From a virus, in IMG/VR virus record IMGVR_UViG_3300012985_000013, positions 1 through 54,809 of that record: 54,809 bases of DNA; one strand, written 5' to 3'. Below, in pieces: positions 2,563 to 19,886 of the stretch (positions within the stretch are counted from its first letter, which is position 1; each line of letters begins with the position of its first letter). The notes under the pieces are model-generated. The model made no database searches. It was not told the DNA's origin and saw only the letters and a program-made list of their open reading frames with translations. Both the position numbers and the translations under genes were made by a program.

Positions 2563-2824
2563 TGATGACCTCCGTGGTGAACTCGTTCTCGTGGTTGCGC
2601 TGACGTGCGATCTCGGCGTGCTCGTACCAGCGCTCGAAGTCGCGACCCTCGGCCTGGTACTCCGAGCGGACGAAGGCGATAGGACGCTCGCAGACCTTGA
2701 GCCAGCGCGCATGGTCGCCGGTGGCGAGGTAGACGTCGCTGGCCCGCAGCCGCCGGTCGCGCGCGAACTGACGCATCTGCACCCACGACGTGAAGCAGAG
2801 GTAGACCGGCGACTGCTCAACCAC
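2555..2824 (-). CDS. Hypothetical phage protein
   Basis: This 89-aa protein starts at a GTG, with GAAGGGAA six bases upstream. The leader carries the motif TATTCTGTATCACATAAG, nearly identical to the leader of the plus-strand gene at 25407, and a 15-bp palindrome lies just upstream of that. This gene may therefore begin its own transcript. No domain is recognised. The protein is charged and soluble. Confidence 0.75.
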   Translation of the reverse strand: MVEQSPVYLCFTSWVQMRQFARDRRLRASDVYLATGDHARWLKVCERPIAFVRSEYQAEGRDFERWYEHAEIARQRNHENEFTTEVINV

Positions 2825-2842
2825 GCTGTTCCCTTCGACTTA

Positions 2843-2858
2843 TGTGATACAGAATAGC
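2843..2858 (-). promoter_or_regulatory. TATCACA leader motif (minus)
   Basis: Read on the minus strand, TATTCTGTATCACAT matches TAATCTGTATCACAT in the promoter region at 25368. Both are followed within 20-25 bases by GAAGGGAA and a start codon. TATTCT would be the -10 box. The -35 region overlaps the palindrome at 2861 and is not clear. Confidence 0.5.
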
Positions 2859-2860
2859 CT

Positions 2861-2875
2861 GCCCCAAGTTGGGGC
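2861..2875. repeat. 15-bp palindrome upstream of minus-strand gene
   Basis: The copy reads GCCCCAAGTTGGGGC, a perfect palindrome. It lies between the stop of the gene at 2877-3056 and the leader of the gene at 2555-2824. Confidence 0.85.
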
Positions 2876-2876
2876 G

Positions 2877-3056
2877 CTACCAGGGCAACGTCACGGGCTC
2901 GCGACGAACGTGCTCGGCGTCGAATGCGCGGCGTGCGAGATCGTGCGCCCAGTCCGGCAGGATGCCGACCTCGCCGCGGTAGCTGACCGCCGTGACGTAG
3001 TAGTCGGGCATCCGCTGGGGCGGGAACAGGCCCCGCCCCAGCGTGCACTCAGGCAT
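2877..3056 (-). CDS. Small hypothetical protein
   Basis: This 59-aa reading frame starts at an ATG at 3056 and overlaps the upstream gene by 8 bp, the same geometry as its neighbours. Its first 15 codons contain a perfect 12-bp-arm inverted repeat (3012-3042). No family is recognised. The operon geometry supports it being real. Confidence 0.6.
   Translation of the reverse strand: MPECTLGRGLFPPQRMPDYYVTAVSYRGEVGILPDWAHDLARRAFDAEHVRREPVTLPW
3012..3042. repeat. Inverted repeat inside a small gene
   Basis: CGCTGGGGCGGG and CCCGCCCCAGCG form a perfect 12-bp stem with a 7-base loop within the first codons of the gene at 2877-3056. The CTGGGGC/GCCCCAG core recalls the 15-bp palindrome, but in inverted arm order. 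It could be a translational hairpin. Confidence 0.55.
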
Positions 3057-3528
3057 CCCGCAACTCCGGCCGCAGCCAGTACGTGATCGTCGCCCGGTTC
3101 GAGTCCCATTCGACCTGGTCGTCCATCTCGGTCACGGGGAACCATGCCATGCCCGCCGGCGGCTCCGGCAGCATGTCCAGCATTGCGGTCCACTCGACCA
3201 GCAGCTTCCGGTTGAACTCGTCGATCTGCTCACGGACCAGCCTGTCGAAGGGAGTCTCCTCGATGAAGAGCGCCGAGAATCGATCGTCGACCTCCCCCGC
3301 GTAGAGCTTGTCCAGCGAGATGATCTCGTCGACCCATGCGACCGGCGCGTCAGGCCCGCGCGCGGGCAGATGGAGCGTCGTCGGCACCGTGTTATGCAGC
3401 GTGGGGCGGCCGGCGGCGCGGATCCTGCCCATGACCTGCTCGTGGTGCATGGCCCGGACGCGCTCGTGCGCGCGGCGCAGGCCGCTGTCGCAGCCGCGCT
3501 CGGAGCAGAGGTGGTGCGTGTACGTCAT
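3049..3528 (-). CDS. Hypothetical phage protein
   Basis: This 159-aa protein starts at an ATG that overlaps the preceding stop (ATGA). The upstream in-frame methionine at 3588 is less likely because it lies deep in the previous gene. Residues of about 85-120 form an amphipathic helical region (PFDRLVREQIDEFNRKLLVEW). No domain is recognised. Confidence 0.75.
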   Translation of the reverse strand: MTYTHHLCSERGCDSGLRRAHERVRAMHHEQVMGRIRAAGRPTLHNTVPTTLHLPARGPDAPVAWVDEIISLDKLYAGEVDDRFSALFIEETPFDRLVREQIDEFNRKLLVEWTAMLDMLPEPPAGMAWFPVTEMDDQVEWDSNRATITYWLRPELRDA

Positions 3529-3731
3529 CGGGTCCGTCCCATCTGGCGGTCGTACCCCGCCTGCCACTCGTCGTGCGACATCCGCCACGCTGACGGATCC
3601 TCGGGCTCGGCGCGCCGCGGCGCCTGCGAGCCCATCGCGGCCAGCGTCGCACGGCCGGCGGCCGCCGTCGGGCGCACGAACACGTCACGCAGCACGGCGC
3701 CGAGGAACGCCATGAAGCTGAGGAAGATCAC
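3525..3731 (-). CDS. Small protein with hydrophobic N-terminus
   Basis: This 68-aa protein begins MIFLSFMAFLGAVLRDVFV, a short hydrophobic stretch that could be a membrane anchor, followed by a charged tail (SHDEWQAGYDRQMGRTR). The GTG start overlaps the previous stop. Function is unknown. Confidence 0.65.
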   Translation of the reverse strand: MIFLSFMAFLGAVLRDVFVRPTAAAGRATLAAMGSQAPRRAEPEDPSAWRMSHDEWQAGYDRQMGRTR

Positions 3732-4108
3732 CGCGCCGCCTCCTCCACGGCGGCGATGAACGCCTCGGCGTCCTCGCGGAACAGCGTCACCGTCACCGGG
3801 ATGGTGACCTGCACGATGTCCTCCCGGAGACGTGCCATCCGCACCTCGGCGCCTTGCAGCATGATCGGGTCACCGATGCCGGCGTCGTGCTCCTTGAGGC
3901 CGAAGACGCGCGCGAGCGTCGACCACAGCCGGTTGGACTGGTCGCGGTTCAGTTCGTCGGTGCGCTGCACCGTCATCCGCGTGCGGTTCTCCTCGATCGT
4001 CTTCTCGGCGCGCTCGAGATCGACGAAGCTGTGACGCCACGGCGCGCGCACCATATCGTCCTCGATGCTGACAGCGCGCGTCTCGATGTGGCCGATGGTT
4101 TCAGGCAT
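3728..4108 (-). CDS. Hypothetical phage protein
   Basis: This 126-aa protein uses the ATG at 4108, chosen because GAGGAGAAGG lies just upstream. An earlier in-frame start at 4132 lacks this. The middle is helical and charged, and the C-terminal 35 residues alternate strands and helices (VQVTIPVTVTLFREDAEAF). No recognised domain. Confidence 0.75.
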   Translation of the reverse strand: MPETIGHIETRAVSIEDDMVRAPWRHSFVDLERAEKTIEENRTRMTVQRTDELNRDQSNRLWSTLARVFGLKEHDAGIGDPIMLQGAEVRMARLREDIVQVTIPVTVTLFREDAEAFIAAVEEAAR

Positions 4109-4265
4109 GGTCCTTCTCCTCGCTCTGGCCACGGTGCGTGCCGTGGCCCTGGTTGTTCTGGTGATCCGCCAGGATCTGCAGGCGGCGCTCGCGGCGGACG
4201 GTGCGCGCGACGGCGCGCGACCAGCCGCACGGGCAGGTGATGATGCGGACGGTGGACGGTGTCAT
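4101..4265 (-). CDS. Small CxC-containing protein
   Basis: This 54-aa protein begins MTPSTVRIITCPCGW, has a CPCGW motif near the N-terminus, and is rich in Arg and His afterwards. It could be a partial zinc-binding protein, but only one cysteine pair is present. It overlaps both neighbours by 4-8 bp, which supports it as a real gene. Confidence 0.6.
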   Translation of the reverse strand: MTPSTVRIITCPCGWSRAVARTVRRERRLQILADHQNNQGHGTHRGQSEEKDHA

Positions 4266-4582
4266 GCGCGCTCCCGGGTGATGATGTGGACTAGGTGCTC
4301 GTCGACGAGGTCGGCACCCTCCACGAGGGCGACGCTCATGCCGCGCATACGCTCCTCGAGGAACCGCCGGTCGCCGTGCAGGTATGTGATGCGGCCGCCG
4401 CTCGGGAAGCGCAGCTGCATCGTCGGCTCGACCCGGCGCTCGACGTACTCGCCGAACCCGAGTTCGTGCATGAGCCACGTGTCGTCGTCCAGCTGATCGC
4501 GGGCGACGCTCCGCAGCGGGAACAGGCACAGGGCGCTGCGGCCCATCGTGGCGAGGGTCAGGCGCTGTGGCAGCACGCTCAT
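4262..4582 (-). CDS. Hypothetical phage protein
   Basis: This 106-aa protein starts at the ATG at 4582, overlapping the upstream stop by four bases. Longer in-frame starts are low-complexity out-of-frame shadow of the neighbour. The sequence is mixed alpha/beta with no known motif. Function is unknown. Confidence 0.7.
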   Translation of the reverse strand: MSVLPQRLTLATMGRSALCLFPLRSVARDQLDDDTWLMHELGFGEYVERRVEPTMQLRFPSGGRITYLHGDRRFLEERMRGMSVALVEGADLVDEHLVHIITRERA

Positions 4583-5055
4583 GCCAGCTTCTCCACGAGA
4601 CGCAGCAGCCTCTTCATCTTGCGCCGCAGCTTGCGGGTGCGGCGGCGCTCCACGTTCAGCGCGCGCGTCAGTTCGTCGTTGCGCTTGTCCAGCCACTTCG
4701 CCCGGACGAGCAGTTCCTCGGGATCCAGTTCCTCCAGCTGCTTCGCCGGCGCCGTGAACTGAATGCCGCCGCGGCGCGTGGTGATCTCCCCGAACAGCGG
4801 GTAGGCGACGGCGGCTGGCGCGCGCCAGCCGCCGTCGGCGATGACCTGCAGGGGCACGTCGAGATTCTCGGCGAGCTTGCGGCGAGCCTCTTCGCGCGCG
4901 GTTTCGACGCCATCAGCCGGGCAGGTGCACTGGGCGGCGTCGATCGCCCGCCAGTAGCTGAACGTGTCATCCGGGGCGACCCAGTTACCGCGCAGGGACA
5001 GCAGACAGGGCGCGGGGTGCAGGAAGTGGTCGGGGACGGTGGTGGTATCGGTCAT
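4579..5055 (-). CDS. Hypothetical protein with C-terminal basic coiled coil
   Basis: This 158-aa protein starts at an ATG behind the GAAGGGAACC ribosome-binding sequence typical of this phage. The last 55 residues are a highly charged helix ending in RRRTRKLRRKMKRLLRLVEKLA, likely a coiled coil or nucleic-acid-binding helix. The N-terminal half has no recognised domain. Confidence 0.75.
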   Translation of the reverse strand: MTDTTTVPDHFLHPAPCLLSLRGNWVAPDDTFSYWRAIDAAQCTCPADGVETAREEARRKLAENLDVPLQVIADGGWRAPAAVAYPLFGEITTRRGGIQFTAPAKQLEELDPEELLVRAKWLDKRNDELTRALNVERRRTRKLRRKMKRLLRLVEKLA

Positions 5056-5384
5056 GAGGGGTTCCCTTCGGTGGTGGTGACAGGCATCTCGACGACGAGC
5101 CGCGACCACGGGATCTTCGGCTTCGAGGTGTCCTCGATGAAGTCGCCGTCCTCGTCCAGCACGGCCTCGCCGTTCTCGTCCTCGACCAGCGGGTACTCCT
5201 CGAAGTGCTCCCAGCGGTGCTCGGAGCGGAGGTTGCCGTCCTCGTCGGGGGCGAGGAGGTGGCCGGCGGCCTGCGCGCCGCGCATCGCCATGCCGATACC
5301 CATCTCCAGGACGCGGGCGCGGAGGTCGACGTTGTCGTAGGTGGCGCGCCCGACCGTGAAGGTCTGGCCGTAGGTGAGGATCAT
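5052..5384 (-). CDS. Hypothetical acidic phage protein
   Basis: This 110-aa protein overlaps both neighbours by 4 bp. It has an acidic middle (VEDENGEAVLDEDGDFIED) and no recognised domain. The ATG start follows GAAGGGAACCGCGC. Function is unknown. Confidence 0.75.
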   Translation of the reverse strand: MILTYGQTFTVGRATYDNVDLRARVLEMGIGMAMRGAQAAGHLLAPDEDGNLRSEHRWEHFEEYPLVEDENGEAVLDEDGDFIEDTSKPKIPWSRLVVEMPVTTTEGNPS

Positions 5385-5599
5385 GCGCGGTTCCCTTCGA
5401 CGTGAATCTCGATCGTGGCGGTGACGCCCACGGTGTCTTCGAGGTGGCCTCGGCTGGCTTCGATCAGGCGCTGGACCATCTCGTCGCTGATGGTGGTGTC
5501 CAGCGGCAGCACGATGGTGGCATACGGCGCATTCAGGTCGTCACTGTCGGTCAGCGGCGCCCAGATGACGGTGCGGCTGTGGACCTTGCGGTCGCTCAT
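5381..5599 (-). CDS. Small hypothetical phage protein
   Basis: This 72-aa protein starts at an ATG preceded by a GGAG-type site and overlaps the next gene by 4 bp. Alternating strands and one helix are visible (SDEMVQRLIEASRGHLEDT). No recognised domain. Confidence 0.7.
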   Translation of the reverse strand: MSDRKVHSRTVIWAPLTDSDDLNAPYATIVLPLDTTISDEMVQRLIEASRGHLEDTVGVTATIEIHVEGNRA

Positions 5600-5739
5600 C
5601 GGGGTTCTCCAGTCTCGGGGTCGATCGGTCGGTTGTCGGCGGCCTCGTCCAGCAGCGCGAGGATCCGCGCCCGCTTGTCGGCGTAGGGCTCGAAGCCGGT
5701 GTTGCTCAGCACGACGGTGATGTCGGGCCCGCGGCGCAT
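5596..5739 (-). CDS. Small hypothetical phage protein
   Basis: This 47-aa protein starts at an ATG sharing one base with the upstream stop (TGATG). Longer upstream starts in this frame overlap the wHTH gene and are rejected. It has no recognised motif. Confidence 0.62.
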   Translation of the reverse strand: MRRGPDITVVLSNTGFEPYADKRARILALLDEAADNRPIDPETGEPR

Positions 5740-6224
5740 CAGCGCACCTCGCCGGTGGCGAAGTCGACGGCGTCCATGAGGTCGGGATCGGCCTGCTCGC
5801 CGCGCCAGTCCGGCTGCGGGGTCTGCCGGCGCATCGCCGTCCACTCGCTGCGGGAGCCGCGCCACCCGTACCAGGGTGACACCTGCCAGCAGCGACCGGA
5901 GATGCGGTGGATCCAGCCGTCCTCGACGAGCTTCTTCATGGCGCGGTAGACGTTCTGCCGGCTGATGCCGGTGAGGCGGCCGATGTCGGCCTGGGTGAGC
6001 AGCGCGTATGGCGCGGAGACGCGGTACTCGGCGAGGATGGTGCCGAGGATGACCTGCTCGGTCTGCGTGAAGATCCGAGGGGCCTTCACGAGCACGTAGG
6101 TGTCGACCATGACGTATGCCGGTCCTTCCTGCTCTGAGGGCTTGCGCCGCTTCGCTTGCTTCACCTCGACGACGGTGCCGTCTTCGTACGTCTTCTGGAC
6201 CAGCGGCCCCTGGGTCTTGCTCAT
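5739..6224 (-). CDS. Winged helix-turn-helix protein, RepL-like
   Basis: This 161-aa protein has a clear winged HTH at about residues 50-125: a helix TEQVILGTILAEY, a recognition region LTQADIGRLTGISRQNVYRA, then a wing (DGWIHRISGRCWQVSPWYG) and a WRGS motif. The pattern recalls plasmid RepL/MarR-type proteins, in which the segment after the wing reads like NPxxxxRGS. It is the first gene of the leftward small-gene run, so it may be a regulator of that operon or a replication-related factor. The assignment as a DNA-binding protein is firm, the RepL comparison is tentative. Confidence 0.8.
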   Translation of the reverse strand: MSKTQGPLVQKTYEDGTVVEVKQAKRRKPSEQEGPAYVMVDTYVLVKAPRIFTQTEQVILGTILAEYRVSAPYALLTQADIGRLTGISRQNVYRAMKKLVEDGWIHRISGRCWQVSPWYGWRGSRSEWTAMRRQTPQPDWRGEQADPDLMDAVDFATGEVR

Positions 6225-6291
6225 GGCCCTCCTCAGAGGCGTTTGGTGCTAGCAGAGACTACATTAGTATTCCCGCCAGACACCATGGGGC

Positions 6292-6305
6292 AGTCTGGGC
6301 AGACT
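6292..6305. promoter_or_regulatory. Perfect 14-bp palindrome upstream of leftward operon
   Basis: AGTCTGGGCAGACT is its own reverse complement and lies 68 bp upstream of the wHTH gene start. It is a plausible operator for that gene or another regulator. A direct repeat (AGACTACAT) overlaps its right half and recurs 45 bp to the left. Confidence 0.4.
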
Positions 6306-6536
6306 ACATGGCCGATCCGGGGTTTCCCCTACTCCCGACTGGCATCGGAGGGGTCTGGAGGAGGGTTCTTGTGTCTTATCTTCTTCTCCCATACCAGCCA
6401 CCTCGTCCTGGGCATCCCGTACTTCTGTAATACAGATATCCTACGGCCCGGCGGGGAATTCTGTATCACATATATCCCAGAAAATGGCGAGCATCCGGGG
6501 GAACGGAGAGCGAGCACCACCGCGCAACGGCGCGAA

Positions 6537-6576
6537 ACGGGCCCGGTCCCCCCTCAACAGGTAGGGCCGGGCCCGT
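6537..6576 (-). terminator. Hairpin terminator after regulator gene
   Basis: The arms ACGGGCCCGG and CCGGGCCCGT form a strong GC stem. It lies 20 bp beyond the stop of the minus-strand gene at 6597-7487, so it probably insulates that single-gene transcript from the leftward operon. There is no clear U-tract. Confidence 0.65.
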
Positions 6577-6596
6577 ATGCACGGTCCGTCACCGTG

Positions 6597-7487
6597 TCAA
6601 GCGGACACCGCCTCCCGCTTGCGGGGCGTCGCGGAACGCTTGCGTGCGGGGCGGGCGGGCGTGTCCTGCCCCTTGTCCTGCCCCTTGTCGGCATCGCCGT
6701 AGAGGCGCGTGACGGCCGCTTCGTCGGCGTCCGACTCGACGGATGCGAGCATCGATGCGAGCGCGTCGGGGTCAGCCGCGTTGACGGCCGCGAGGATTCG
6801 CGAGAGGGCGGATGCCGTGGCCGCATCCGCGAGGATCGATGCCGCGCCGCCCTTACGCGTGACGCGGTCGGCGATGACCTGGAGGAGGGTGAGCGTCCCG
6901 GCCGCGCTGAGGTCACGCTTACGGTCCGCGTCGGTGCGCCCATCGGCGGGGTCGGACTTAGGCGCGGCGGTCTTCCGGTCCGCCTCCGTTTCGGTCACGT
7001 CGGGCGTGCCGCCGACGGCGCGCGTTCCGCTCGCGGGCTTTGCGGTCAGCTCGCCGGTGCGCGCCTGGCGGAGTTCGTCGCGGACCGCCGCGACAGCCGC
7101 GTAGGCGGCATCGCCGTCGGTTGCCGCGTGCGCCATGTCAGCGGCGCGGGTGACGTCGGCCGCGCCGCCGTAGCTTGCGATGGTGTACAGCACGTGCACG
7201 ATTGCGTCGGACGCGTCCCCCACGTGGGACCAGTCGCGGGTGCCGATACGCGTGGCGACCGTGTGCAGACGCGACGCGTTGCCCTTACTGGTGCCCGTGT
7301 AGTACTCGACGGCGCGGGACGACATCCCGTGTTCGATGACCAGCACGTGCACGGCGCGGACCGCTGCCGCGATGCGCGACGCCGACGGCTCGAGTCCGGC
7401 GACGGCGCGGGCGGCGCGCTCGACGGCGCGGCGCACCTTGACGTCGAGGTCGGCGGCGGGAGCGATGGTGACGATTGCCTTAGGCAT
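6597..7487 (-). CDS. Putative DNA-binding regulator of the divergent control region
   Basis: This 296-aa protein is transcribed alone, from its own strong promoter (7553-7581), which carries the shared CTAG inverted repeat, and it is closed by a hairpin terminator. Residues of about 50-80 (GMSSRAVEYYTGTSKGNAS and the following helix) read like a helix-turn-helix. The remainder is Ala-rich and helical, with a basic Lys/Arg tail (KGQDTPARPARKRSATPRK). Its place beside divergent promoters that share an operator is what one expects of a repressor or autoregulator. I do not recognise the family, and it is not a typical ParB or a lambda-type repressor. The regulatory role is inferred from context. 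Confidence 0.6.
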   Translation of the reverse strand: MPKAIVTIAPAADLDVKVRRAVERAARAVAGLEPSASRIAAAVRAVHVLVIEHGMSSRAVEYYTGTSKGNASRLHTVATRIGTRDWSHVGDASDAIVHVLYTIASYGGAADVTRAADMAHAATDGDAAYAAVAAVRDELRQARTGELTAKPASGTRAVGGTPDVTETEADRKTAAPKSDPADGRTDADRKRDLSAAGTLTLLQVIADRVTRKGGAASILADAATASALSRILAAVNAADPDALASMLASVESDADEAAVTRLYGDADKGQDKGQDTPARPARKRSATPRKREAVSA

Positions 7488-7503
7488 TTCTTCGATCCTG
7501 TCT

Positions 7504-7518
7504 GCCCCGATTTGGGGC
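7504..7518. repeat. 15-bp palindrome GCCCC-N5-GGGGC
   Basis: The copy reads GCCCCGATTTGGGGC. It lies 17 bp upstream of the regulator start (7487) and 35 bp downstream of the P1 -10 box, so it would be a leader hairpin in that mRNA. Confidence 0.85.
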
Positions 7519-7541
7519 GGTTGGGTGCCGCTCCGTGTGAG

Positions 7542-7581
7542 CGACTAGGACAACAGTAAGTCCTAGTCGGCTACGTGTCAA
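7542..7581 (-). promoter_or_regulatory. Promoter P1 with CTAG operator, regulator gene
   Basis: On the minus strand TTGACA (7581-7576) and TACTGT (7558-7553) are separated by exactly 17 bp. The inverted repeat CGACTAGGAC-N8-GTCCTAGTCG (7542-7569) brackets the -10 box, with CTAG cores 18 bp apart. A bound dimer would block polymerase. The promoter faces the gene at 7487, suggesting autoregulation. Confidence 0.8.
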
Positions 7582-7595
7582 GTGCGCGTCGGCGT

Positions 7596-7610
7596 GCCCC
7601 ACATTGGGGC
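7596..7610. repeat. 15-bp palindrome GCCCC-N5-GGGGC
   Basis: The copy reads GCCCCACATTGGGGC. It lies between the divergent promoters, 15 bp upstream of the P1 -35 box. Confidence 0.85.
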
Positions 7611-7675
7611 GGCGGGCCCGCGCTAGGTGGCAGGAATGCTACGGGCGTAGGCATCGTGATGCCGGCGCGAGGGCC

Positions 7676-7690
7676 GCCCCAGGTTGGGGC
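7676..7690. repeat. 15-bp palindrome GCCCC-N5-GGGGC
   Basis: The copy reads GCCCCAGGTTGGGGC. It lies 19 bp upstream of the P2 -35 box, mirroring the copy upstream of P1. Confidence 0.85.
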
Positions 7691-7709
7691 GCGGGCACTG
7701 GTACAACGC

Positions 7710-7754
7710 TTGACACAACGGCTCAACTAGTGTAGAGTTGTTTACTAGTTGAGC
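7710..7754 (+). promoter_or_regulatory. Promoter P2 with CTAG operator, first rightward operon
   Basis: TTGACA (7710-7715) and TAGAGT (7733-7738) are 17 bp apart. The inverted repeat GCTCAACTAGT-N12-ACTAGTTGAGC (7721-7731 and 7744-7754) brackets the -10 box, with CTAG cores 18 bp apart, as at the sister promoters. The flanking bases differ from the GACTAGGA type. The transcript leader contains the 15-bp palindrome at 7800. Confidence 0.8.
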
Positions 7755-7799
7755 CGCGGAATGTCGCGGATTTCGGGGCCGGTCGCGGCCTCATCGAGT

Positions 7800-7814
7800 G
7801 CCCCAGATTGGGGC
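7800..7814. repeat. 15-bp palindrome GCCCC-N5-GGGGC
   Basis: The copy reads GCCCCAGATTGGGGC. It lies in the P2 leader, 16 bp before the ATG at 7831 and immediately before the GGAAAGG ribosome-binding sequence. Confidence 0.85.
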
Positions 7815-7830
7815 GGAAAGGTGCGTCATC

Positions 7831-7950
7831 ATGGCACGCTACAGGCGGGTTGCACGGCTGAGGATCGCCCTGGCGCTATGGGCCCTGTCCGGCGGATACG
7901 GCATCGTCGGCGGCATCGCGGCGCGCCTGGCGGCAGGAGTGGATCGATGA
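7831..7950 (+). CDS. Small membrane protein
   Basis: This 39-aa protein has one hydrophobic segment (IALALWALSGGYGIVGGIAA) and basic residues before it. It is the first gene after promoter P2 and the leader palindrome, with GGAAAGG upstream of the ATG. It overlaps the next gene by ATGA. Its presence in a run of three tiny membrane proteins suggests an early host-envelope role, which is unproven. Confidence 0.65.
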   Translation: MARYRRVARLRIALALWALSGGYGIVGGIAARLAAGVDR

Positions 7951-8165
7951 CGCGCCGACAGAGCTACGTCACCCCGGCGCGCCAGACGCGCCTACGTATC
8001 ACCCCGCGTGGACTGGCGCTGGTCAATCTCGCATTGGCGCTCGCCCTCGCGGCGGCCGTGGGGTGCCTCGCCCTGGCGGCGGCAAGCCTCGCCACGGATG
8101 CGCCGCCGACGTGCGAGGGGCGGACCGTCGTCGACGCGGGACCGTGCGCGGGAGTGTCGCGATGA
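7947..8165 (+). CDS. Small membrane protein
   Basis: This 72-aa protein starts in an ATGA overlap. A basic N-terminus (MTRRQSYVTPARQTRLR) precedes a long hydrophobic helix (residues of about 28-55) and a short tail with two cysteines (CEGRTVVDAGPC). It is predicted to be a single-pass membrane protein with the tail outside. Function is unknown. Confidence 0.7.
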   Translation: MTRRQSYVTPARQTRLRITPRGLALVNLALALALAAAVGCLALAAASLATDAPPTCEGRTVVDAGPCAGVSR

Positions 8166-8305
8166 CGCGCCGCGCCTACGACAGGACCAGGTGGGACCGG
8201 CTGCAGGCGTGCGCGCTCACCGTGGGCATCGCCCTGAGCGGCACGGTCGCCGCGGGTGTCGCCCTCCTCCTGCCTGCCGCCGTCGCGATCGGACTGTTCC
8301 GATGA
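8162..8305 (+). CDS. Small membrane protein
   Basis: This 47-aa protein starts in an ATGA overlap. It has a basic N-terminus (MTRRAYDRTRWDR) followed by one long hydrophobic helix to the C-terminus. It shares the MTRR start and topology with its upstream neighbour, which may mean a duplication. Confidence 0.65.
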   Translation: MTRRAYDRTRWDRLQACALTVGIALSGTVAAGVALLLPAAVAIGLFR

Positions 8306-8544
8306 CCATCAACGAAGATCGCCCCAACCTGGGGCGCGCCGAGCTACCGACGTTCGTCCTGGCCCGCACGCCCAGCCGTCGACCGACGCTGCAGCACGTC
8401 TTCGTGCTCAACGAAGATGGGCGCGAGGCGTCGGCGTGCGGACTGGACCTGACCCAGTGGAGCCGCGCCTACCAGCCCGCTCCGATCCGCGCCATCCTGT
8501 GCATGAAGTGCGCTCGTATCACCCTCGATGGAGGTCTGTCATGA
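8302..8544 (+). CDS. Small CxxC protein with NEDRPNLG leader
   Basis: This 80-aa protein begins MTINEDRPNLGRAELP, where the RPNLG is encoded by a 15-bp palindrome. A similar start occurs in other genes here. The rest is unknown, with a CMKC near the C-terminus that could bind metal if paired with other residues. It overlaps both neighbours by 4 bp. Confidence 0.7.
   Translation: MTINEDRPNLGRAELPTFVLARTPSRRPTLQHVFVLNEDGREASACGLDLTQWSRAYQPAPIRAILCMKCARITLDGGLS
8321..8335. repeat. 15-bp palindrome inside a start region
   Basis: The copy reads GCCCCAACCTGGGGC. It starts 19 bases after the A of the ATG at 8302 and encodes RPNLG in frame. Confidence 0.85.
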
Positions 8545-8624
8545 CTCAGCAGTCCAGCGGTCCGCGCCCGCCGTTCGAGCCCGCGCCCCGCCCCCGCCCG
8601 CGTCCGCGCCAGACGGCGGCGTGA
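8541..8624 (+). CDS. Tiny proline/arginine-rich ORF
   Basis: This 27-aa reading frame starts in an ATGA overlap with GGAGGT upstream and encodes a Pro/Arg-rich tail (EPAPRPRPRPRQTAA). The geometry is that of a real gene, but the length and low complexity leave doubt. Confidence 0.4.
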   Translation: MTQQSSGPRPPFEPAPRPRPRPRQTAA

Positions 8625-8625
8625 C

Positions 8626-8892
8626 GTGGCTGTCAACGAAGATCGCCCCATGTTGGGGCACGTCATCGCCGAGAGGTTCTCGACGCTGCGCGTGGCCAAC
8701 CTGGAACTGAACAGGTGGCAGCGCATGGTCGACCGCGGCATCGAGCGTCGCATCCCGCGCGAGATCCGCGAGGCAGCGCGCCTCGCGGACGAGGCGCTCG
8801 ATGCCCTGATGTTCGGGGTCACCGCGCACGAACTGCAGTGGGCGCACATGCCCGACGAGTGCCCGATCTGCAAGGGGGAGGTGCAGCTGTGA
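8626..8892 (+). CDS. Small protein with NEDRPMLG leader and CxxC
   Basis: This 88-aa protein has a GTG start and begins MAVNEDRPMLGHV, matching the leader of the gene at 8302. The middle is a charged helix (REIREAARLADEALDAL) and the end has a CPIC pair. The palindrome at 8645 encodes RPMLG. Function is unknown. Confidence 0.72.
   Translation: MAVNEDRPMLGHVIAERFSTLRVANLELNRWQRMVDRGIERRIPREIREAARLADEALDALMFGVTAHELQWAHMPDECPICKGEVQL
8645..8659. repeat. 15-bp palindrome inside a start region
   Basis: The copy reads GCCCCATGTTGGGGC. It starts 19 bases after the first base of the GTG at 8626, the same offset as in the gene at 8302. Confidence 0.85.
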
Positions 8893-9086
8893 CCGTCAAC
8901 GAACGGCCGCGCGCCGAGATCCTCGACGCGCCGCACATGCGCGACAATCGCCTGTTCATCGCCGAGACGACGGACTACCCGATCTCGGGCGACAAGATCG
9001 CCGTGTTCCTCGACGACCCCGGGCACGGGCGCGTGCGTCGCATGGAACTCGGCGACCTGCTCTGGCCGCGGGTGCGCGGTGAGTGA
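8889..9086 (+). CDS. Small protein with NERP leader
   Basis: This 65-aa protein has a GTG start overlapping the previous stop and begins MTVNERPRAEIL, so it retains the NERP leader without an intact palindrome. The remainder (ISGDKIAVFLDDPGHGRVRR) looks like a small beta-barrel fold. Function is unknown. Confidence 0.68.
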   Translation: MTVNERPRAEILDAPHMRDNRLFIAETTDYPISGDKIAVFLDDPGHGRVRRMELGDLLWPRVRGE

Positions 9087-9249
9087 GGTCGAGCGCCCCA
9101 AGGTGGGGCAGACGTGGCTGCACGAGGCGAGCGGCTACTGGTATCGCTGCACCCGCGCGTGGCCGGCGATCGTCTTCCAGGGCTACGGTCGCACCCGCCG
9201 GCCGAGTGAGCGCGCCCTGGCCTCCGGCGCCTGGCGTCGGGTGCTGTGA
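9079..9249 (+). CDS. Small aromatic-rich protein with ERPKVG leader
   Basis: This 56-aa protein has a GTG start overlapping the upstream gene by 8 bp and begins MSEVERPKVGQTW. The rest is Trp/Tyr/Arg-rich. The palindrome at 9095 encodes RPKVG. It is last in the first plus-strand operon. Function is unknown. Confidence 0.62.
   Translation: MSEVERPKVGQTWLHEASGYWYRCTRAWPAIVFQGYGRTRRPSERALASGAWRRVL
9095..9109. repeat. 15-bp palindrome inside a start region
   Basis: The copy reads GCCCCAAGGTGGGGC. It starts 16 bases after the first base of the GTG at 9079. Confidence 0.85.
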
Positions 9250-9314
9250 GCACAGTCAATGAACATCATTGTCCCCTTGCGTGAGAGGCTCACTTGCTCC
9301 ACGCTGTGTCCTAG

Positions 9315-9354
9315 TTGACACAGGGGACTGACTAGGATACTGTTTTTCCTAGTC
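9315..9354 (+). promoter_or_regulatory. Promoter P3 with CTAG operator
   Basis: TTGACA (9315-9320) and TACTGT (9338-9343) are 17 bp apart. The inverted repeat GACTAGGA-N9-TCCTAGTC (9330-9354) brackets the -10 box, with CTAG cores 17 bp apart. It drives the gene at 9413 and probably the genes after it. Confidence 0.82.
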
Positions 9355-9382
9355 ACGACAGCCTGGCTGGCTGTCAACGAAC

Positions 9383-9397
9383 GCCCCAATCTGGGGC
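9383..9397. repeat. 15-bp palindrome in leader
   Basis: The copy reads GCCCCAATCTGGGGC. It lies 40 bp after the P3 -10 box and directly before the AGAAGGGAA ribosome-binding sequence of the gene at 9413. The bases just before it (GTCAACGAAC) match the NERP-coding starts, so a former start codon region may have become leader here. Confidence 0.85.
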
Positions 9398-9412
9398 AGA
9401 AGGGAACCCGCC

Positions 9413-9706
9413 ATGCAGACCTACATCGCACGGCTCACCGACCGGGGATCGCTCAGCGAGCCCATCATCTGGCGCACCGAGTCCATCGCCGAGGCGCGCG
9501 AACTGCTCGCCAACGTCGGCAGCTGGCAGACCGCGCCCGACAGCGGCGACCAGATCCTGCTCAGCGACTCGGCGTTCGTCGACGTCTTCGACTACCCGAC
9601 GCACGCCAAGGATCCCGACCTGGCCCTCGTCATCGAGGACCAAATGCCCCGCCTCACGTTCTCCATCGGAGTGCGCGGCGGCATCCGGCGGGAGGCCCAC
9701 CGATGA
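9413..9706 (+). CDS. Hypothetical phage protein
   Basis: This 97-aa protein is the first gene after promoter P3, with AGAAGGGAA upstream of its ATG. It has mixed strands and helices and no recognised domain. It overlaps the next gene by ATGA. Confidence 0.75.
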   Translation: MQTYIARLTDRGSLSEPIIWRTESIAEARELLANVGSWQTAPDSGDQILLSDSAFVDVFDYPTHAKDPDLALVIEDQMPRLTFSIGVRGGIRREAHR

Positions 9707-9948
9707 CCGTCACAATCGAGCAGGTGTCGCTCGCTCTCAACATCTACGGCGAGCCGTACGTGAACGAAGGAGACTCACCTCGCTGGGCGCTGTACGCCGA
9801 CAGCGACTCGGGCGTGGTGACCGCCGCCACCCTGGCATCCGGCGATATGCCCAAGGATCACCCGCTGTATGGCGCGGAGGATGAGTGGCTGTACGGCGAC
9901 GACGTCCTCGAGTTCCTGGCACGAGAGGACGTGGTGGCAGATGTCTGA
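9703..9948 (+). CDS. Hypothetical acidic protein
   Basis: This 81-aa protein overlaps both neighbours. It is acidic, with a helix near the end (GDDVLEFLAREDVV). No domain is recognised. Confidence 0.72.
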   Translation: MTVTIEQVSLALNIYGEPYVNEGDSPRWALYADSDSGVVTAATLASGDMPKDHPLYGAEDEWLYGDDVLEFLAREDVVADV

Positions 9949-10318
9949 CTCAGGCCGCCCCAACCTGGGGCACCTCGTCGGTCGGCAGGTCCGCCTCACC
10001 GGCGAGGCGTGGGACGGTGCGACCTACCCCTCGCGGTGGAGCGTCCACACCATCGTCCGCATCGACGACAACGGCATCCCGCGCATCCATCACGAGGGCC
10101 ACAACTGGCTCGTGATCCTGCCCGACACCAAGGAGTCGCCCGCCATGCGCCGAGACTGGTCGGCCGTGCTGACCGAGCCGAGCGACGCCGTCGCCCGGCT
10201 GCAGAAGTGGGCGCGCGACGTGGCGCAGCTGCTCGCCGTCGAGGGTCAGCGATGGACCGAAGAACTCGAGGCGCTGCGCGTCATCGAGAACGATCTGGAC
10301 CTGGAGGCACAGCGATGA
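9941..10318 (+). CDS. Hypothetical protein with LVGRQVRLTG motif
   Basis: This 125-aa protein begins MSDSGRPNLGHLVGRQVRLTG. The palindrome at 9957 encodes RPNLG. The segment LVGRQVRLTG is shared with the gene at 10806 (LVGRKVRLTG), which suggests a common small N-terminal beta fold. The C-terminal half is a long charged helix. Confidence 0.74.
   Translation: MSDSGRPNLGHLVGRQVRLTGEAWDGATYPSRWSVHTIVRIDDNGIPRIHHEGHNWLVILPDTKESPAMRRDWSAVLTEPSDAVARLQKWARDVAQLLAVEGQRWTEELEALRVIENDLDLEAQR
9957..9971. repeat. 15-bp palindrome inside a start region
   Basis: The copy reads GCCCCAACCTGGGGC. It starts 16 bases after the A of the ATG at 9941. Confidence 0.85.
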
Positions 10319-10611
10319 TCCGCATTCTGCTGCACGCCGTGCAAGACGCCCGCCTGCTGGAGCAGGTCGCCGGCATCCTCGAGACGGCGGTCGAGGTCGA
10401 CCCTGACCACTGGGACAAGGTGAAGGATCAGCCCGGCATCGTCGACCACTACGGCCACCACACCGACACGCGATCGTCGACCGTGCTGGTCAAGGAGTCC
10501 TGGTCGCCCTGGTACTACCGGCTGACCATCCGCCCCGGCGAGAACGCGGTGTACGACAACCTCGCCGCCCTCATCGCATCCACCCTCGTCGCCACCCCGG
10601 CGACGGTCTGA
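10315..10611 (+). CDS. Hypothetical phage protein
   Basis: This 98-aa protein starts in an ATGA overlap. It contains an N-terminal helix (QDARLLEQVAGILETAVEV) and a His-rich middle (HYGHHTD). No domain is recognised. A palindrome follows its stop. Confidence 0.72.
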   Translation: MIRILLHAVQDARLLEQVAGILETAVEVDPDHWDKVKDQPGIVDHYGHHTDTRSSTVLVKESWSPWYYRLTIRPGENAVYDNLAALIASTLVATPATV

Positions 10612-10613
10612 CC

Positions 10614-10628
10614 GCCCCAACCTGGGGC
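10614..10628. repeat. 15-bp palindrome in intergenic leader
   Basis: The copy reads GCCCCAACCTGGGGC. It lies between the stop at 10611 and the AGAGAGAAG ribosome-binding sequence of the gene at 10645. Confidence 0.85.
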
Positions 10629-10644
10629 AGAGAGAAGCACCACC

Positions 10645-10809
10645 ATGGCCACCATGACCAACGAGCAGCGCCGCGTTCACCGTGCGCTCGGCAGCGCAGA
10701 GAAGCGCCTCATCCACCTCGTCGTGTTCGAGGCGGATCCGAAACAGATCGCCCGCACCGAGGCCACCGTGAAGCGGCTGACCTCTGCCTGGAAGGCGTGC
10801 CAGCGATGA
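10645..10809 (+). CDS. Small basic helical protein
   Basis: This 54-aa protein has an ATG 16 bp after a palindrome and an AGAGAGAAG ribosome-binding site. It is a basic helical protein (TEATVKRLTSAWKACQR) without a recognised domain, and it overlaps the next gene by ATGA. Confidence 0.65.
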   Translation: MATMTNEQRRVHRALGSAEKRLIHLVVFEADPKQIARTEATVKRLTSAWKACQR

Positions 10810-11267
10810 CCGACCTCGTCGGCCGCAAGGTGCGCCTGACCGGCGCTGGCTACGCCAAGTACATGTTGGCGCAGAGCGTACGCACGGTCGCCGTGGATGA
10901 CTCTCGCGTCGACGGGACCGTCGGATGCCGGACGGGAGACGGCTTGCTTTGGACGTGGCTCAACGATCGCGACCACGAGTTCGCCGGTGTGCTGCTGCCC
11001 AAGCGTGTGCGCATCTGGGTCTACTCGTTCGCCGTCCCGGACTCACTCAGCGGGTTCGAGTGGGGCCCCGTCGACGACGATCCGATCGGGGCCGCACGAC
11101 TGCACGCTCTCTTCGACGAAGAGGCGGCGAACCCTATCGGGTACGGCGCTCTCGTCGAGATGCACCTCGCGCTCGACGGCGCGGCGAACATGACCGACTA
11201 CATCGACGGCGAACTGCAGGATGCAATCGCTCTCGGCCTGGTCGGCAAGATCATCGGGAGGTACTGA
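10806..11267 (+). CDS. Hypothetical protein with LVGRKVRLTG motif
   Basis: This 153-aa protein begins MTDLVGRKVRLTG, paralogous at its N-terminus to the gene at 9941. The C-terminal two thirds contain mixed strands and acidic helices (DPIGAARLHALFDEEAAN). Function is unknown. Confidence 0.75.
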   Translation: MTDLVGRKVRLTGAGYAKYMLAQSVRTVAVDDSRVDGTVGCRTGDGLLWTWLNDRDHEFAGVLLPKRVRIWVYSFAVPDSLSGFEWGPVDDDPIGAARLHALFDEEAANPIGYGALVEMHLALDGAANMTDYIDGELQDAIALGLVGKIIGRY

Positions 11268-11554
11268 TGAGCGACCTCGACCTGCGGTCCATGTTCCCGG
11301 AGTGGCTCAGCTTCACCGGCGAGGACATGAAGCTGCGCCGCAAGCGGGAGGTGACCACGCCGTTCCGCAGGTGGGAGATCCTGCCGCGCTACGGCTCGGC
11401 CGAGTCCGACCGCTGGACCATCATCGGCGCGCCGGCGCCCGGCCCGAGCAACCCGGCCCGCGACTACGAGGACGGCCAGTACCCGTCGCTCGCCGCGGCG
11501 TACGACGCCCTCAACCAGTGCCTCGCGCACGACGACGGCACCAGCGAGAAGTGA
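11267..11554 (+). CDS. Hypothetical phage protein
   Basis: This 95-aa protein shares one base with the previous stop (TGATG), with GGGAGG upstream. It is basic in the N-terminal half and ends with a helix (AAAYDALNQCLAHDD). No domain is recognised. Confidence 0.72.
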   Translation: MSDLDLRSMFPEWLSFTGEDMKLRRKREVTTPFRRWEILPRYGSAESDRWTIIGAPAPGPSNPARDYEDGQYPSLAAAYDALNQCLAHDDGTSEK

Positions 11555-11573
11555 GCAAATCGCTCAACCAACC

Positions 11574-11588
11574 GCCCCAGGTTGGGGC
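11574..11588. repeat. 15-bp palindrome in intergenic leader
   Basis: The copy reads GCCCCAGGTTGGGGC. It lies just before the AGAAAGAGCAGGG ribosome-binding region of the gene at 11604. Confidence 0.85.
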
Positions 11589-11603
11589 AGAAAGAGCAGG
11601 GAC

Positions 11604-12245
11604 ATGAGCAAGTTCCAGAACGCATACGACGAGCAGGCGTACAGCCTGTCGCTCGACGCGACCCAGGACTCGGACGGCGACCAGGCGTCGCCGCTCGGGT
11701 GGTTCGGGTGCCTCACGCTCGACGTCGACGCCGACGGCGAAGGGATCGTCGAGCACTACGGCACCCGCCACCTACTGGTGCACGAGTCGAGCGAGGGCTT
11801 CGTCACGGTGATGCCGTTCGCTGACGGCGACCTGCGCGACCGCCGGTTCAAGGATCTGCAGCAGGCGTACGAACTGTGGGAGGCGGGCGTCGCTGACGCC
11901 GAGATCAAGCTGGCGATCGACAACTACCTGCAGGCCGCCGTGTTCACGTCGAAGATCGTGGACCCGTCCGTGCCGTGGTCCGGCGAGGCCCAGGTGCAGG
12001 CGCGGGACGAGGTCATCGAGTTCGTGACCTCCAACATCCGGGAGATCCGCCAGTTCCAGGAGGCGACCGGCCATGGCTGGGAGCAGATCGGCATCGACTT
12101 CTGCCTGACCCGCAACCACGAGAGTGCTGGCTTCTGGATGCGCGACCACGCCGGGGCCGCCGGCAAGGCGCTGACCGACGCGGCCCGGATGTGGGACGAG
12201 GTCGACGTGGAGATCGACGACAACGGAGAGCAGGTGTTCGCATGA
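11604..12245 (+). CDS. Conserved phage hypothetical protein (DFxLTRNxxxAGFW motif)
   Basis: This 213-aa protein contains, near residues 165-185, GIDFCLTRNHESAGFW. That motif resembles the DFWLTRNGHGAGFWDR signature of a widespread phage accessory family of unknown function. The N-terminal 110 residues are acidic and form a separate segment. It may therefore be a two-part protein. It overlaps the next gene by ATGA. Confidence 0.75.
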   Translation: MSKFQNAYDEQAYSLSLDATQDSDGDQASPLGWFGCLTLDVDADGEGIVEHYGTRHLLVHESSEGFVTVMPFADGDLRDRRFKDLQQAYELWEAGVADAEIKLAIDNYLQAAVFTSKIVDPSVPWSGEAQVQARDEVIEFVTSNIREIRQFQEATGHGWEQIGIDFCLTRNHESAGFWMRDHAGAAGKALTDAARMWDEVDVEIDDNGEQVFA

Positions 12246-12634
12246 GCAAGATCGAGTGGATCACAGCGCCGCAGATCGAGGTCGGCGGCAGCGCGCGGCC
12301 GGACTCGGTGACCGACGAGCACGGCATCCAGAACAGCGTGGCGATCATCACGCTCACGAACCGGCACAGCGGCGACGCTGTCGTCATCGAGGGTCGGCCC
12401 GAGCATCTGCTCAACCTGGCCCGCGCGCAGCTGCGCGTCGCCGAGCAGATCGTCGAGGCGACGATGCGTGACCCGCAGCTGCGATCGATGTACGGGCTGA
12501 CCGCACACGTCGGAACGGTCGAGTTCATCGCCGAGGCGCGGGCTCTCGGGGCGGACGACGGGGCTGTCGCCAGGGTCATGCTCGATGAGCGAGCGCCCCA
12601 AGTTGGGGCGGTGGGGGAGGAGGACCGTGGCTGA
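12242..12634 (+). CDS. Hypothetical phage protein
   Basis: This 130-aa protein starts in an ATGA overlap. A strand-rich N-terminus is followed by a helix (PEHLLNLARAQLRVAEQIVE). Its last residues are encoded by DNA containing the palindrome at 12595 and the ribosome-binding region of the next gene. Function is unknown. Confidence 0.73.
   Translation: MSKIEWITAPQIEVGGSARPDSVTDEHGIQNSVAIITLTNRHSGDAVVIEGRPEHLLNLARAQLRVAEQIVEATMRDPQLRSMYGLTAHVGTVEFIAEARALGADDGAVARVMLDERAPQVGAVGEEDRG
12595..12609. repeat. 15-bp palindrome before a GTG start
   Basis: The copy reads GCCCCAAGTTGGGGC. It lies inside the 3' end of the gene at 12242 and 17 bp before the GTG at 12627. It also falls ten bases into an alternative ATG frame, which would begin MSERPKLG. 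Confidence 0.85.
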
Positions 12635-12929
12635 CCACCGCTTCGTCGTCACCGTCTCGGGATGCACGGCTGAGCAGGCCGAGCAGGTCATGAGCGAGCG
12701 CATCAACGTAGACGAGGACTACGGCTTCGAGTACACGATCGGCTGGGAGGGGACCGCGCCGACAGGGTATGTCGTCGGCGCACCGGACACCACGCCGAAT
12801 GGCGGGGGCTACTGCGGCGAGATGGACGACAACTTCGTCTGCACCCGCGAGCCCGACGGTCACTCGCAGCACGCCGCCGGCAATGGGTACACGATCGCTC
12901 ACGTGTGGGGAGAGCCCGATGCCTCGTGA
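12627..12929 (+). CDS. Hypothetical phage protein
   Basis: This 100-aa protein is placed at the GTG at 12627 because GGGGGAGGAGGA lies directly upstream and the overlap with the previous gene is then only 8 bp. A longer start at ATG 12585 would give an MSERPKLG leader resembling other genes here. The protein has a strand-helix start (RFVVTVSGCTAEQAEQV) and a pair of cysteines further on. Function is unknown. Confidence 0.7.
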   Translation: MADHRFVVTVSGCTAEQAEQVMSERINVDEDYGFEYTIGWEGTAPTGYVVGAPDTTPNGGGYCGEMDDNFVCTREPDGHSQHAAGNGYTIAHVWGEPDAS

Positions 12930-13185
12930 GCGGGGCGGGTGGCTCACGCCGGACGCCCTCAAGACGGCCGGCATCTGCGAGCAGTGGGCGCATGAGCAGT
13001 CTGACTTCCGCAACGAGGTGAGCCTGTGCCACGACGAGCGGCAGGGTGGCTACGTGGTGCAGCACGTGCACATCCGATTCACCGACGGCGTGCGCGAGGT
13101 GCACGCCTGGCAAGTAGGCGAGCGCATCCACCTGGCACGGCGCCAGTTCCGCAAGGTTGTCCAGTCCCTCGGAGGTCGGGCATGA
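12919..13185 (+). CDS. Hypothetical phage protein
   Basis: This 88-aa protein overlaps the previous gene by 11 bp. It has a helical N-terminus with one Cys, strands with several His (VVQHVHIRFTDG) and a basic helical C-terminus. Function is unknown. Confidence 0.7.
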   Translation: MPRERGGWLTPDALKTAGICEQWAHEQSDFRNEVSLCHDERQGGYVVQHVHIRFTDGVREVHAWQVGERIHLARRQFRKVVQSLGGRA

Positions 13186-18443: not shown

Positions 18444-18496
18444 CCTGGAATCACCCCGACAACCCCGTGCCGGATGAGCACGACGAAGACCTCTGA
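18440..18496 (+). CDS. Tiny acidic ORF
   Basis: This 18-aa reading frame starts in an ATGA overlap and follows the palindrome at the usual 16-bp spacing. It encodes an acidic peptide (MTWNHPDNPVPDEHDEDL). It could be a leader peptide for the surface-protein gene that follows 17 bp downstream. Support is positional only. Confidence 0.35.
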   Translation: MTWNHPDNPVPDEHDEDL

Positions 18497-18512
18497 GAGA
18501 ACAGGAGAATCC

Positions 18513-19847
18513 ATGCAGAGGATCATGAAGGGAGCCGTCGCGATCACCGCGGCGCTGCTCGTCGCCGCGCCCACCGCGGCGTTCGCCACCACGCAGCAGG
18601 ACGAGGCCGCGGCCGAGATCTGCTACGAGGACAGCACCAAGACCGAGATCACCTACGCGCTGCAGCGCAGCGACTGGGTAGCCGGAGTGCCGGAGGTTCC
18701 GGCGGTGCCTGAGTCGTACGCCCCGCAGGGGAACTACGGCGACACGCGATCGGCCGGCCACTACCAGGCCGAGTCGGGCGCGCTCCACATCTGGACCGAC
18801 GACGCATCATCGCAGGCGAAGGTCGCCGGCTACCTCGCGACGTCGATCCCGCTGGCCAGTGTGACGAGCGCGACTCTGGACTACACGCTCGTCAACGGCA
18901 TCACCCCGGGCACACAGCTGGTGGTCGACATCGACGGCGACGGCGCGGGCGACGGCATCCTCGTCGGCGAGCCGGTGTACGGCGGCGACTTCTGGCTGAG
19001 CAACAGCGCGAGCGCAGCGTTCAAGGCACTCGCCCCGCAGGTCGGCGGCGGCTTCGGCTCGGAGAACCACGGCCTGCTCACAGAGTGGGCGGCCGCGGCG
19101 CCGGATGCCACAGTCGTGGCCGTCGGCTTCTCGCTCGGCTCTGGCGTGCACGGCGAGGGCTACGTCAACGGCCTGGTCGTGGCGGGCACCACGTACTCGT
19201 TCGTCTCGTACAACGCCGGGACGCCTGGCGTGCCCGGAGTGCCCGAGCACTACACGGACTGGTACGAGGTGTCCACGGGCCAGGGCGAGACGCTGCCGGA
19301 TGATCGCGCCGACGGCGAGGAGTTCCAGACGGATGCCCTCTACCGCTACGTGGTGACTGGCGAGGTCGAGGTTCCGACCCGGACCGAGGTCGAGTGCCCG
19401 GCGCAGCCCGAGCCGCTGACGGGCGTGGACTACGAGTCGGCGCCCGGAGTGTGCATCGAGCCGCTCGATGGCACTGCGACCGTCGAGGTCTACGCCACCG
19501 CGTGGACCCAGGCGTACACGTGGGACACCGATGGTGAGGCATGGGTGCTGGGCGACAAGGTGTTCGAGCGTCAGGTCTTCGACCACGCCGAGGCTGTGCC
19601 GTCCGATGAGTGCGAGCCGGAGGTGGTCGTCGAGCCCACGCCGGATCCGACGCCGAGTGCGGAGCCCACGCCGACGGCAACACCGGAGCCCACCGTCCCG
19701 CCGCAGCCGACGGCTGGCGAGGACACCCTCGCCGCGACCGGTGGTGACAATGGCGCGGTCGCGCTGCTCACGGCGGGCGCGCTGCTCATCGCCGGCATCG
19801 CGATCACTGCGGTGCTGGAGATCCGCCGCCGCCGCACGGACCGGTAG
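18513..19847 (+). CDS. Secreted cell-wall-anchored surface protein (LAxTG)
   Basis: This 444-aa protein has a signal peptide at residues of about 1-26 (a basic start, a hydrophobic core and an AFA cleavage site). A long beta-rich ectodomain is followed by a Pro/Thr stalk of about 40 residues (PTPDPTPSAEPTPTATPEP). At about residue 406 comes LAATG, a hydrophobic helix and an RRRRTDR tail. This is the classic order of a sortase substrate, and LAxTG is the motif used by actinobacterial class E sortases. It would be displayed on the infected host. Superinfection exclusion or altered host surface properties are possible roles, but neither is shown. AGGAG precedes the ATG and a terminator follows, so it is a discrete cassette. 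Confidence 0.85.
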   Translation: MQRIMKGAVAITAALLVAAPTAAFATTQQDEAAAEICYEDSTKTEITYALQRSDWVAGVPEVPAVPESYAPQGNYGDTRSAGHYQAESGALHIWTDDASSQAKVAGYLATSIPLASVTSATLDYTLVNGITPGTQLVVDIDGDGAGDGILVGEPVYGGDFWLSNSASAAFKALAPQVGGGFGSENHGLLTEWAAAAPDATVVAVGFSLGSGVHGEGYVNGLVVAGTTYSFVSYNAGTPGVPGVPEHYTDWYEVSTGQGETLPDDRADGEEFQTDALYRYVVTGEVEVPTRTEVECPAQPEPLTGVDYESAPGVCIEPLDGTATVEVYATAWTQAYTWDTDGEAWVLGDKVFERQVFDHAEAVPSDECEPEVVVEPTPDPTPSAEPTPTATPEPTVPPQPTAGEDTLAATGGDNGAVALLTAGALLIAGIAITAVLEIRRRRTDR

Positions 19848-19853
19848 CAGAAC

Positions 19854-19886
19854 GGGAGGGCCGGACACCCGAAGTCCGGCCCTCCC
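19854..19886 (+). terminator. Hairpin terminator after surface protein gene
   Basis: The arms GGGAGGGCCGGAC and GTCCGGCCCTCCC are perfectly complementary (13 bp) with a 7-base loop and begin 7 bp after the stop codon. Confidence 0.8.

Follow-up and report, generated by a model that had tools for sequence, protein, structure and literature searches.

Class E sortases display proteins that bear an LAXTG signal (PMC5148588). We analysed a gene for a protein of this kind in the genome of a virus of soil bacteria, IMG/VR virus record IMGVR_UViG_3300012985_000013, the whole 54,809 bases of which are called the window here. The gene lies at 18513-19847, and the coordinates given for it in an earlier note on this DNA were correct. 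Known class E sortase substrates with LAXTG, such as the Streptomyces chaplins and the proteins of NF058582 and the SCO1860 family, resemble the window protein in the LAxTG motif, the hydrophobic segment and the arginine tail. The window protein differs from them in being phage-encoded and in scoring below the cut-off of the sorting-signal model.

Phage-encoded wall-anchored proteins and surface exclusion proteins are already known. SasX of the staphylococcal phiSPbeta-like prophage is a phage-encoded, wall-anchored surface protein (PMC10232760). It differs from the window protein in being a prophage gene with a role in aggregation and colonisation, whereas here the carriers are lytic-type phages and the sortase is of class E; no relation between the two ectodomains is known. 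SasX carries an LPXTG motif and belongs to class A sortase. In Clostridioides difficile, the wall protein CwpV, whose exposed domains vary, prevents phage DNA from entering while adsorption is unaffected (PMC4737114). Like the predicted product of the window gene, it is wall-attached and has an exchangeable exposed domain; it is host-encoded, has another kind of anchor, and carries repeats where the window protein has a domain resembling a carbohydrate-binding module (CBM). Superinfection exclusion is also the task of Ltp, a surface lipoprotein encoded by Streptococcus phage TP-J34 (PMC3952083). It shares with the window protein its phage origin and a location outside the cell membrane (predicted in the case of the window protein), and differs in being a lipoprotein from a temperate phage. 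Ltp has a small helical fold.

Most phage surface proteins known to exclude other phages or to change the host come from temperate phages, as lipoproteins or membrane proteins, or from prophage genes like sasX. In the literature searched, with partial journal coverage, phage proteins with a class E (LAxTG) anchor were not reported, and sortase-anchored proteins of Microbacterium phages were not named in any paper; the words sortase and LPXTG are absent from the main genome survey of Microbacterium phages. A wall protein anchored by the host sortase in phages that show no sign of lysogeny, its ectodomain swapped between near-identical genomes, suggests that surface competition shapes lytic phages too. 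Our preferred reading, which we hold tentatively and at somewhat less than an even chance, is that the host sortase displays an exchangeable shield, probably one that binds glycans, and that superinfection is limited by it. The analysis shows the architecture, the early-type location, a sortase in the host family, the homology, the fold and the exchange of ectodomains with the anchor retained; the anchoring itself, exclusion and glycan binding are the parts that we infer.

Sorting signal and anchoring machinery

The open reading frames (ORFs) of at least 60 amino acids in the window were screened with a rule that required L[PA]xTG, a hydrophobic 15-mer and at least two K/R residues at the end. 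The surface protein alone carried a sorting signal by this rule (1/365), which was passed by 2 of 109,500 shuffled C-termini and by 8 of 20,000 shuffles of the surface protein's own tail. The complete sortase-precursor architecture is far above chance. The protein begins with the signal peptide MQRIMKGAVAITAALLVAAPTAAFA, followed by TT at the predicted mature start, and ends in LAATG-GDNGAVALLTAGALLIAGIAITAVLEI-RRRR-TDR. The signal peptide, ectodomain, Pro/Thr stalk and LAATG-hydrophobic-RRRR signal that had been described for this gene were all present in the translated ORF. The NCBIfam model NF058582 (Microco_LAVTG) matched residues 406-441 over nearly its full length, with 17.2 bits against a cut-off of 27 (E 0.004). 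Being below the cut-off, the surface protein is not filed under NF058582; the general anatomy of a sorting signal is nonetheless there. We infer, with good support, export and wall anchoring by a sortase of class E type, and the surface protein is predicted to lie on the outer side of the infected cell's membrane.

The endolysin of the window matched Microbacterium phages alone (241/241 phage records), which points to Microbacterium as the host. A class E sortase above the NCBIfam cut-off was found in 176 of 200 genomes of Microbacteriaceae (the family of an Agromyces genome), and the Micrococcales LAVTG sorting-signal model matched in 82 of 100 genomes of the host family. The anchoring machinery is nearly universal in Microbacteriaceae. 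As judged at family level, the host would have the class E sortase that the earlier note asked for.

Phage relatives and exchange of the exposed part

Matches to the window-type ectodomain came from six records, belonging to four Microbacterium phages (Megan, Nicole72, Gina and Teamocil), with 45-53% identity over residues 36-302. When Megan, Gina and Nicole72 were aligned, the signal peptide and the tail were kept, with LAQTG in place of LAATG followed by a hydrophobic stretch and RRR. Megan gp43, Nicole72 gp44, and Gina and Teamocil gp86 resemble the window protein in the ectodomain and the stalk and are annotated as hypothetical or membrane proteins. The window protein differs from these relatives by other C-terminal modules, by LAATG rather than LAQTG and by another genome position. 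Further records were obtained by searches with Nicole72 gp44 and with a sorting tail. In total, 84 records match modules of the class, including duplicate accessions, so that it is widespread among Microbacterium phages.

Twelve proteins from other Microbacterium phages were translated (Megan, Nicole72, Gina, Krampus, Mercedes, Leaf, Magritte, Jayden, Margaery, Quhwah, Metamorphoo and Terij), and a signal peptide and an LA[QAE]TG tail were present in all twelve. There are two ectodomain classes: class A is the window type, and class B is that of Krampus, Mercedes, Leaf, Jayden, Margaery, Quhwah, Metamorphoo and Terij. The Magritte protein is a composite with modules of both. Six named genera contain carriers, namely Quhwahvirus, Metamorphoovirus, Mementomorivirus, Krampusvirus, Neferthenavirus and Rogerhendrixvirus. 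The tail is kept with homologous and with unrelated ectodomains, and the earlier proposal of a phage-encoded protein anchored by a class E type sortase is supported.

Gina and Jayden both belong to the genus Quhwahvirus and have the same host, M. paraoxydans NWU1. The genes flanking the surface gene are highly similar between them (upstream protein, 91% identity; sigma-factor-like, 95%; ParB-like, 93%; glycosyltransferase, 96%), and their 42-residue sorting tails are 76% identical, whereas their ectodomains show no significant similarity (best blastp E 0.11). The Gina surface protein is 67% identical to that of Nicole72, 62% to that of Megan and 32% to that of Jayden, while twelve other Gina genes are mostly nearer to Jayden. 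As judged by these alignments, the exposed part was exchanged at the Gina/Jayden locus and the anchor function was kept. Such a replacement behind a constant anchor fits a part that faces rivals or a variable target.

The last minor tail protein of Gina (L048:16467-17255) follows the surface protein in its affinities, being 76-77% identical to Megan and Nicole72 and about 50% to Jayden; co-transfer of the two is possible. The genes that come after the surface gene in Quhwahvirus are a short one annotated as sigma factor and then those of a ParB-like nuclease, a glycosyltransferase and a UDP-glucose dehydrogenase (L002:21184-22810, L008:3277-4906 and L044:3214-5060), which perhaps form an envelope-modifying group.

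Elsewhere, the IMG/VR collection gave no relative in a single-sequence scan and two in an alignment-based scan, and a plasmid search returned no match to the surface protein. One IMG/VR contig encodes a secreted protein that ends shortly past the window-type domain and has no sortase signal (L011:5902-6540). The finding also flags some misannotated genes. Quhwah gp85 (L044:1804-3129), annotated as "glycosyltransferase", translates as an LAxTG surface protein and has no glycosyltransferase match in Pfam. Paschalis gp81, also annotated as "glycosyltransferase", and Potty gp57 (L054:1679-3310), annotated as "DnaE-like DNA polymerase III alpha", show a match to the tail or a module of the surface protein in a corresponding position.

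Fold, proposed function and origin of the ectodomain

According to the earlier note, the ectodomain had no recognisable fold. This is corrected by chromosomal homologues at 37-55% identity and by a confident model of a CBM-like beta-sandwich. Using 22 homologous cellular and viral sequences, AlphaFold2 modelled residues 66-235 with a mean pLDDT of 94.3 and a pTM of 0.89. Structure prediction had been suggested for residues 30-350, and only part of this range was modelled well: residues 66-235 were confident, and residues 27-70 and 238-370 had low model confidence. The nearest structure by VIA-align was CBM11 (1v0a; Z 8.4, 3.5 A over 133 residues, 7% identity), and the other neighbours were a viral turret domain (8qpg, Z 7.9), tailspike domains and CBM16/4/30/6. 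Foldseek pointed to GH12 enzymes (E 7e-3), and the best match in a viral fold library was the Megan homologue. With CBM11, 4, 16 and 6 the ectodomain has the beta-sandwich in common; it differs from them by the low identity and by the lack of a Pfam CBM match. A single CBM family was not named because the beta-sandwich scores of Foldseek and VIA-align were tied and weak; families beyond those listed may apply as well. Pfam, PHROGs and PADLOC contained no family for the surface protein, and a sequence profile had no significant match in the PDB. The loop at residues 139-148 is conserved as DxDxDGxxDG (D139-x-D-x-D-G-x-x-D147-G) and may be a calcium-type site. We take the CBM likeness as a lead; on this model, the ectodomain probably binds a cell-envelope glycan.

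The proposed course of events is as follows. Early in infection, a secreted precursor would be made from the surface gene and routed through Sec by its signal peptide. The host class E sortase would cut LAATG and link the protein to the cell wall, so that the infected cell would show the CBM-like beta-sandwich on a stalk. The displayed domain might mask a glycan receptor, or disturb the tail at DNA injection as CwpV does, and related phages would be kept out of the already infected cell. We prefer superinfection exclusion because several of the carriers are described as obligately lytic, the ectodomain is swapped wholesale with the anchor kept, and there are working precedents. Relatives in cluster EC are described as obligately lytic (PMC7302621). 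Searches of the window found no tyrosine integrase, serine recombinase or sortase, although the record may be incomplete. Together with the lytic habit of the EC relatives, the lack of a detected integrase implies a benefit within one cycle, which favours exclusion of competitors over lysogenic conversion.

Some observations weigh against this proposal. Jayden and Quhwah have the same type of surface protein (76%), yet their hosts differ, as do their tail tips (26-54%). Gina and Jayden share the host and most tail proteins, and their surface-protein types differ. The CBM likeness is weak, as both the best Z and the Foldseek E value cited above indicate, and such a Z is usual among beta-sandwiches. 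Strict self-recognition, with the type of surface protein tied to the tail tip, is contradicted by the Jayden/Quhwah pair. As neither host nor tail tip predicts the type strictly, strict self-exclusion is weakened, and competition against mixed phages fits better. More doubtful is the wider idea that obligately lytic actinophages have a general class of host-sortase-anchored shields for phage competition at the infected cell's surface, in which a fixed frame for export and anchoring carries a host-derived ectodomain that close relatives swap at a single locus; we regard it as possible. If exclusion were demonstrated, lytic actinophages would have an entire class of such exchangeable shields. 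Hosts and phages are present in laboratory collections, and the idea is therefore directly testable.

The same domain is encoded at 18 cellular loci, mostly of Actinomycetota (37-55% identity). The carriers are Agromyces, Herbiconiux, Cryobacterium, Frigoribacterium, Naasia, Blastococcus, Geodermatophilus, Klenkia, Nocardioides and Nakamurella, together with metagenome-assembled genomes (MAGs) labelled Acidobacteria and Patescibacteria. The "Acidobacteria" MAG (L024, JABBOD010000001.1, G012) is placed in the Agromyces family, and its label is probably wrong. The domain occurs in 12 of 200 Microbacteriaceae genomes. Its cellular contexts are small secreted proteins, or multi-domain surface proteins with LAxTG or SLH. 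No Pfam or NCBIfam family covers it in the cellular examples scanned. The finding also flags an unnamed actinobacterial domain. The small secreted actinobacterial proteins (L014-L016, L018, L020-L023, L025, L027, L030 and L031) combine it with a C-terminal CKxGGWxTSTxPxFxNQGxCVSSF motif.

In the tree, the copies from phages are united with two LADTG proteins of Agromyces (96/87), and the window copy pairs with Agromyces (93/85). The Agromyces LADTG genes sit among housekeeping genes (e.g. methionine synthase and glutamyl-tRNA reductase). Because the domain belongs to actinobacterial secreted or sortase-anchored proteins, the ectodomain is probably of host origin. Exchange between phages and hosts of this family is the simplest reading; its direction is presumed.

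These homologues bear on two other explanations. The protein may be an adhesin that makes infected cells cling to one another, to neighbouring cells or to a surface; this would help progeny to meet new hosts and leave superinfection unaffected. The homologous domains in large multi-Ig, SLH or LAxTG actinobacterial surface proteins have the look of adhesins, the CBM-like fold would suit this role, and the phage-encoded SasX is tied to intercellular aggregation (PMC10232760). However, a lytic cycle leaves little time for adhesion to pay, and the swap of a whole ectodomain at one locus suits a moving antagonist at least equally; we consider an adhesin unlikely. The protein could also be a host moron that serves in slow or carrier-state infection, where it might bind nutrients or guard against predators or antibodies and would play no part in competition between phages. 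The derivation of the domain from the host family, its chromosomal location in related bacteria, and the gene's own ribosome-binding site and hairpin agree with this. Set against the window without a detected integrase and several carriers in clusters described as obligately lytic, a moron seems distinctly unlikely. Superinfection exclusion is retained as the preferred function.

Gene features and surroundings

The features of the gene and its surroundings are collected in Table 1. A second in-frame ATG lies upstream at 18474, and the ribosome-binding site goes with the ATG at 18513. The earlier note gave the gene its own ribosome-binding site and a terminator. The former is present; the latter is plausible only, the hairpin past the stop codon having no T run and being passed over by a terminator scan based on T runs. 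The second module is also present in Magritte gp249 (blastp E 3e-10 over the stretch containing the module).

Table 1 Features of the surface protein gene and neighbouring genes in the window.
Feature	Position	Strand	Basis or remark
LAxTG surface protein gene, 444 aa	18513..19847	+	stop codon 19845-19847
Ribosome-binding site AGGAG, spacing 5 nt to ATG 18513	18503..18507	+	sequence
Signal peptide, cleavage predicted after AFA (residue 25)	18513..18587	+	sequence and hydropathy rule
Ectodomain, residues 66-235, CBM-like beta-sandwich (model)	18708..19217	+	AlphaFold2 model, structure alignment, conservation in 22 sequences
Second module ahead of stalk, about residues 300-372	19410..19628	+	blastp to Magritte gp249; low-confidence model part
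Pro/Thr/Glu stalk	19629..19727	+	sequence
LAATG sortase motif, residues 406-410	19728..19742	+	sorting-signal rule
Hydrophobic segment of sorting signal	19755..19817	+	mean Kyte-Doolittle 2.44 over 15 residues
RRRR positive tail	19824..19835	+	sequence
Perfect 13-bp hairpin past stop codon, possible terminator without T run	19854..19886	+	folding, -32.7 kcal/mol, z -6.1
Replication initiator	21543	+	
DnaB-like helicase	22644	+	
RecE-like exonuclease	28857	+	
RecT-like annealing protein	30722	+	
Endolysin, minor tail, capsid and related genes	from ~34 kb on	-	

The neighbours on both sides of the surface gene are rightward and non-structural; their names come from PHROGs and from their likeness to genes of annotated Microbacterium phages. 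The surface gene lies among rightward early genes and the late operon is leftward; it is therefore outside the virion operon. Neighbours and strand thus confirm the position proposed earlier, a separate cassette among early genes and not a virion gene. A capsid or tail decoration protein with a membrane-type tail by chance would agree with the weak fold likeness to the viral turret protein and the tailspike domains. This is made very improbable by a signal peptide and a complete sortase signal that are retained from phage to phage, and by a gene that lies among early genes and is read in the opposite direction to the late virion operon. The location also bears on the idea that the protein coats the wall of the dying cell, so that new virions are not re-adsorbed to the parent cell or its debris. 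A wall-linked protein remains on debris, and the glycan-binding-like fold would mask receptors by the same logic as in superinfection exclusion, but a place among early genes suggests early expression, and we judge such protection of progeny to be improbable.

In the left arm (1-13000, + strand), the four largest rightward ORFs matched nothing in PHROGs, and another four matched nothing in Pfam. An 84-residue protein adjoining the tail genes (35904-36158, - strand) is common to all phages with the window-type ectodomain; its gene was dropped as evidence, since it also occurs in Microbacterium phages that gave no ectodomain match.
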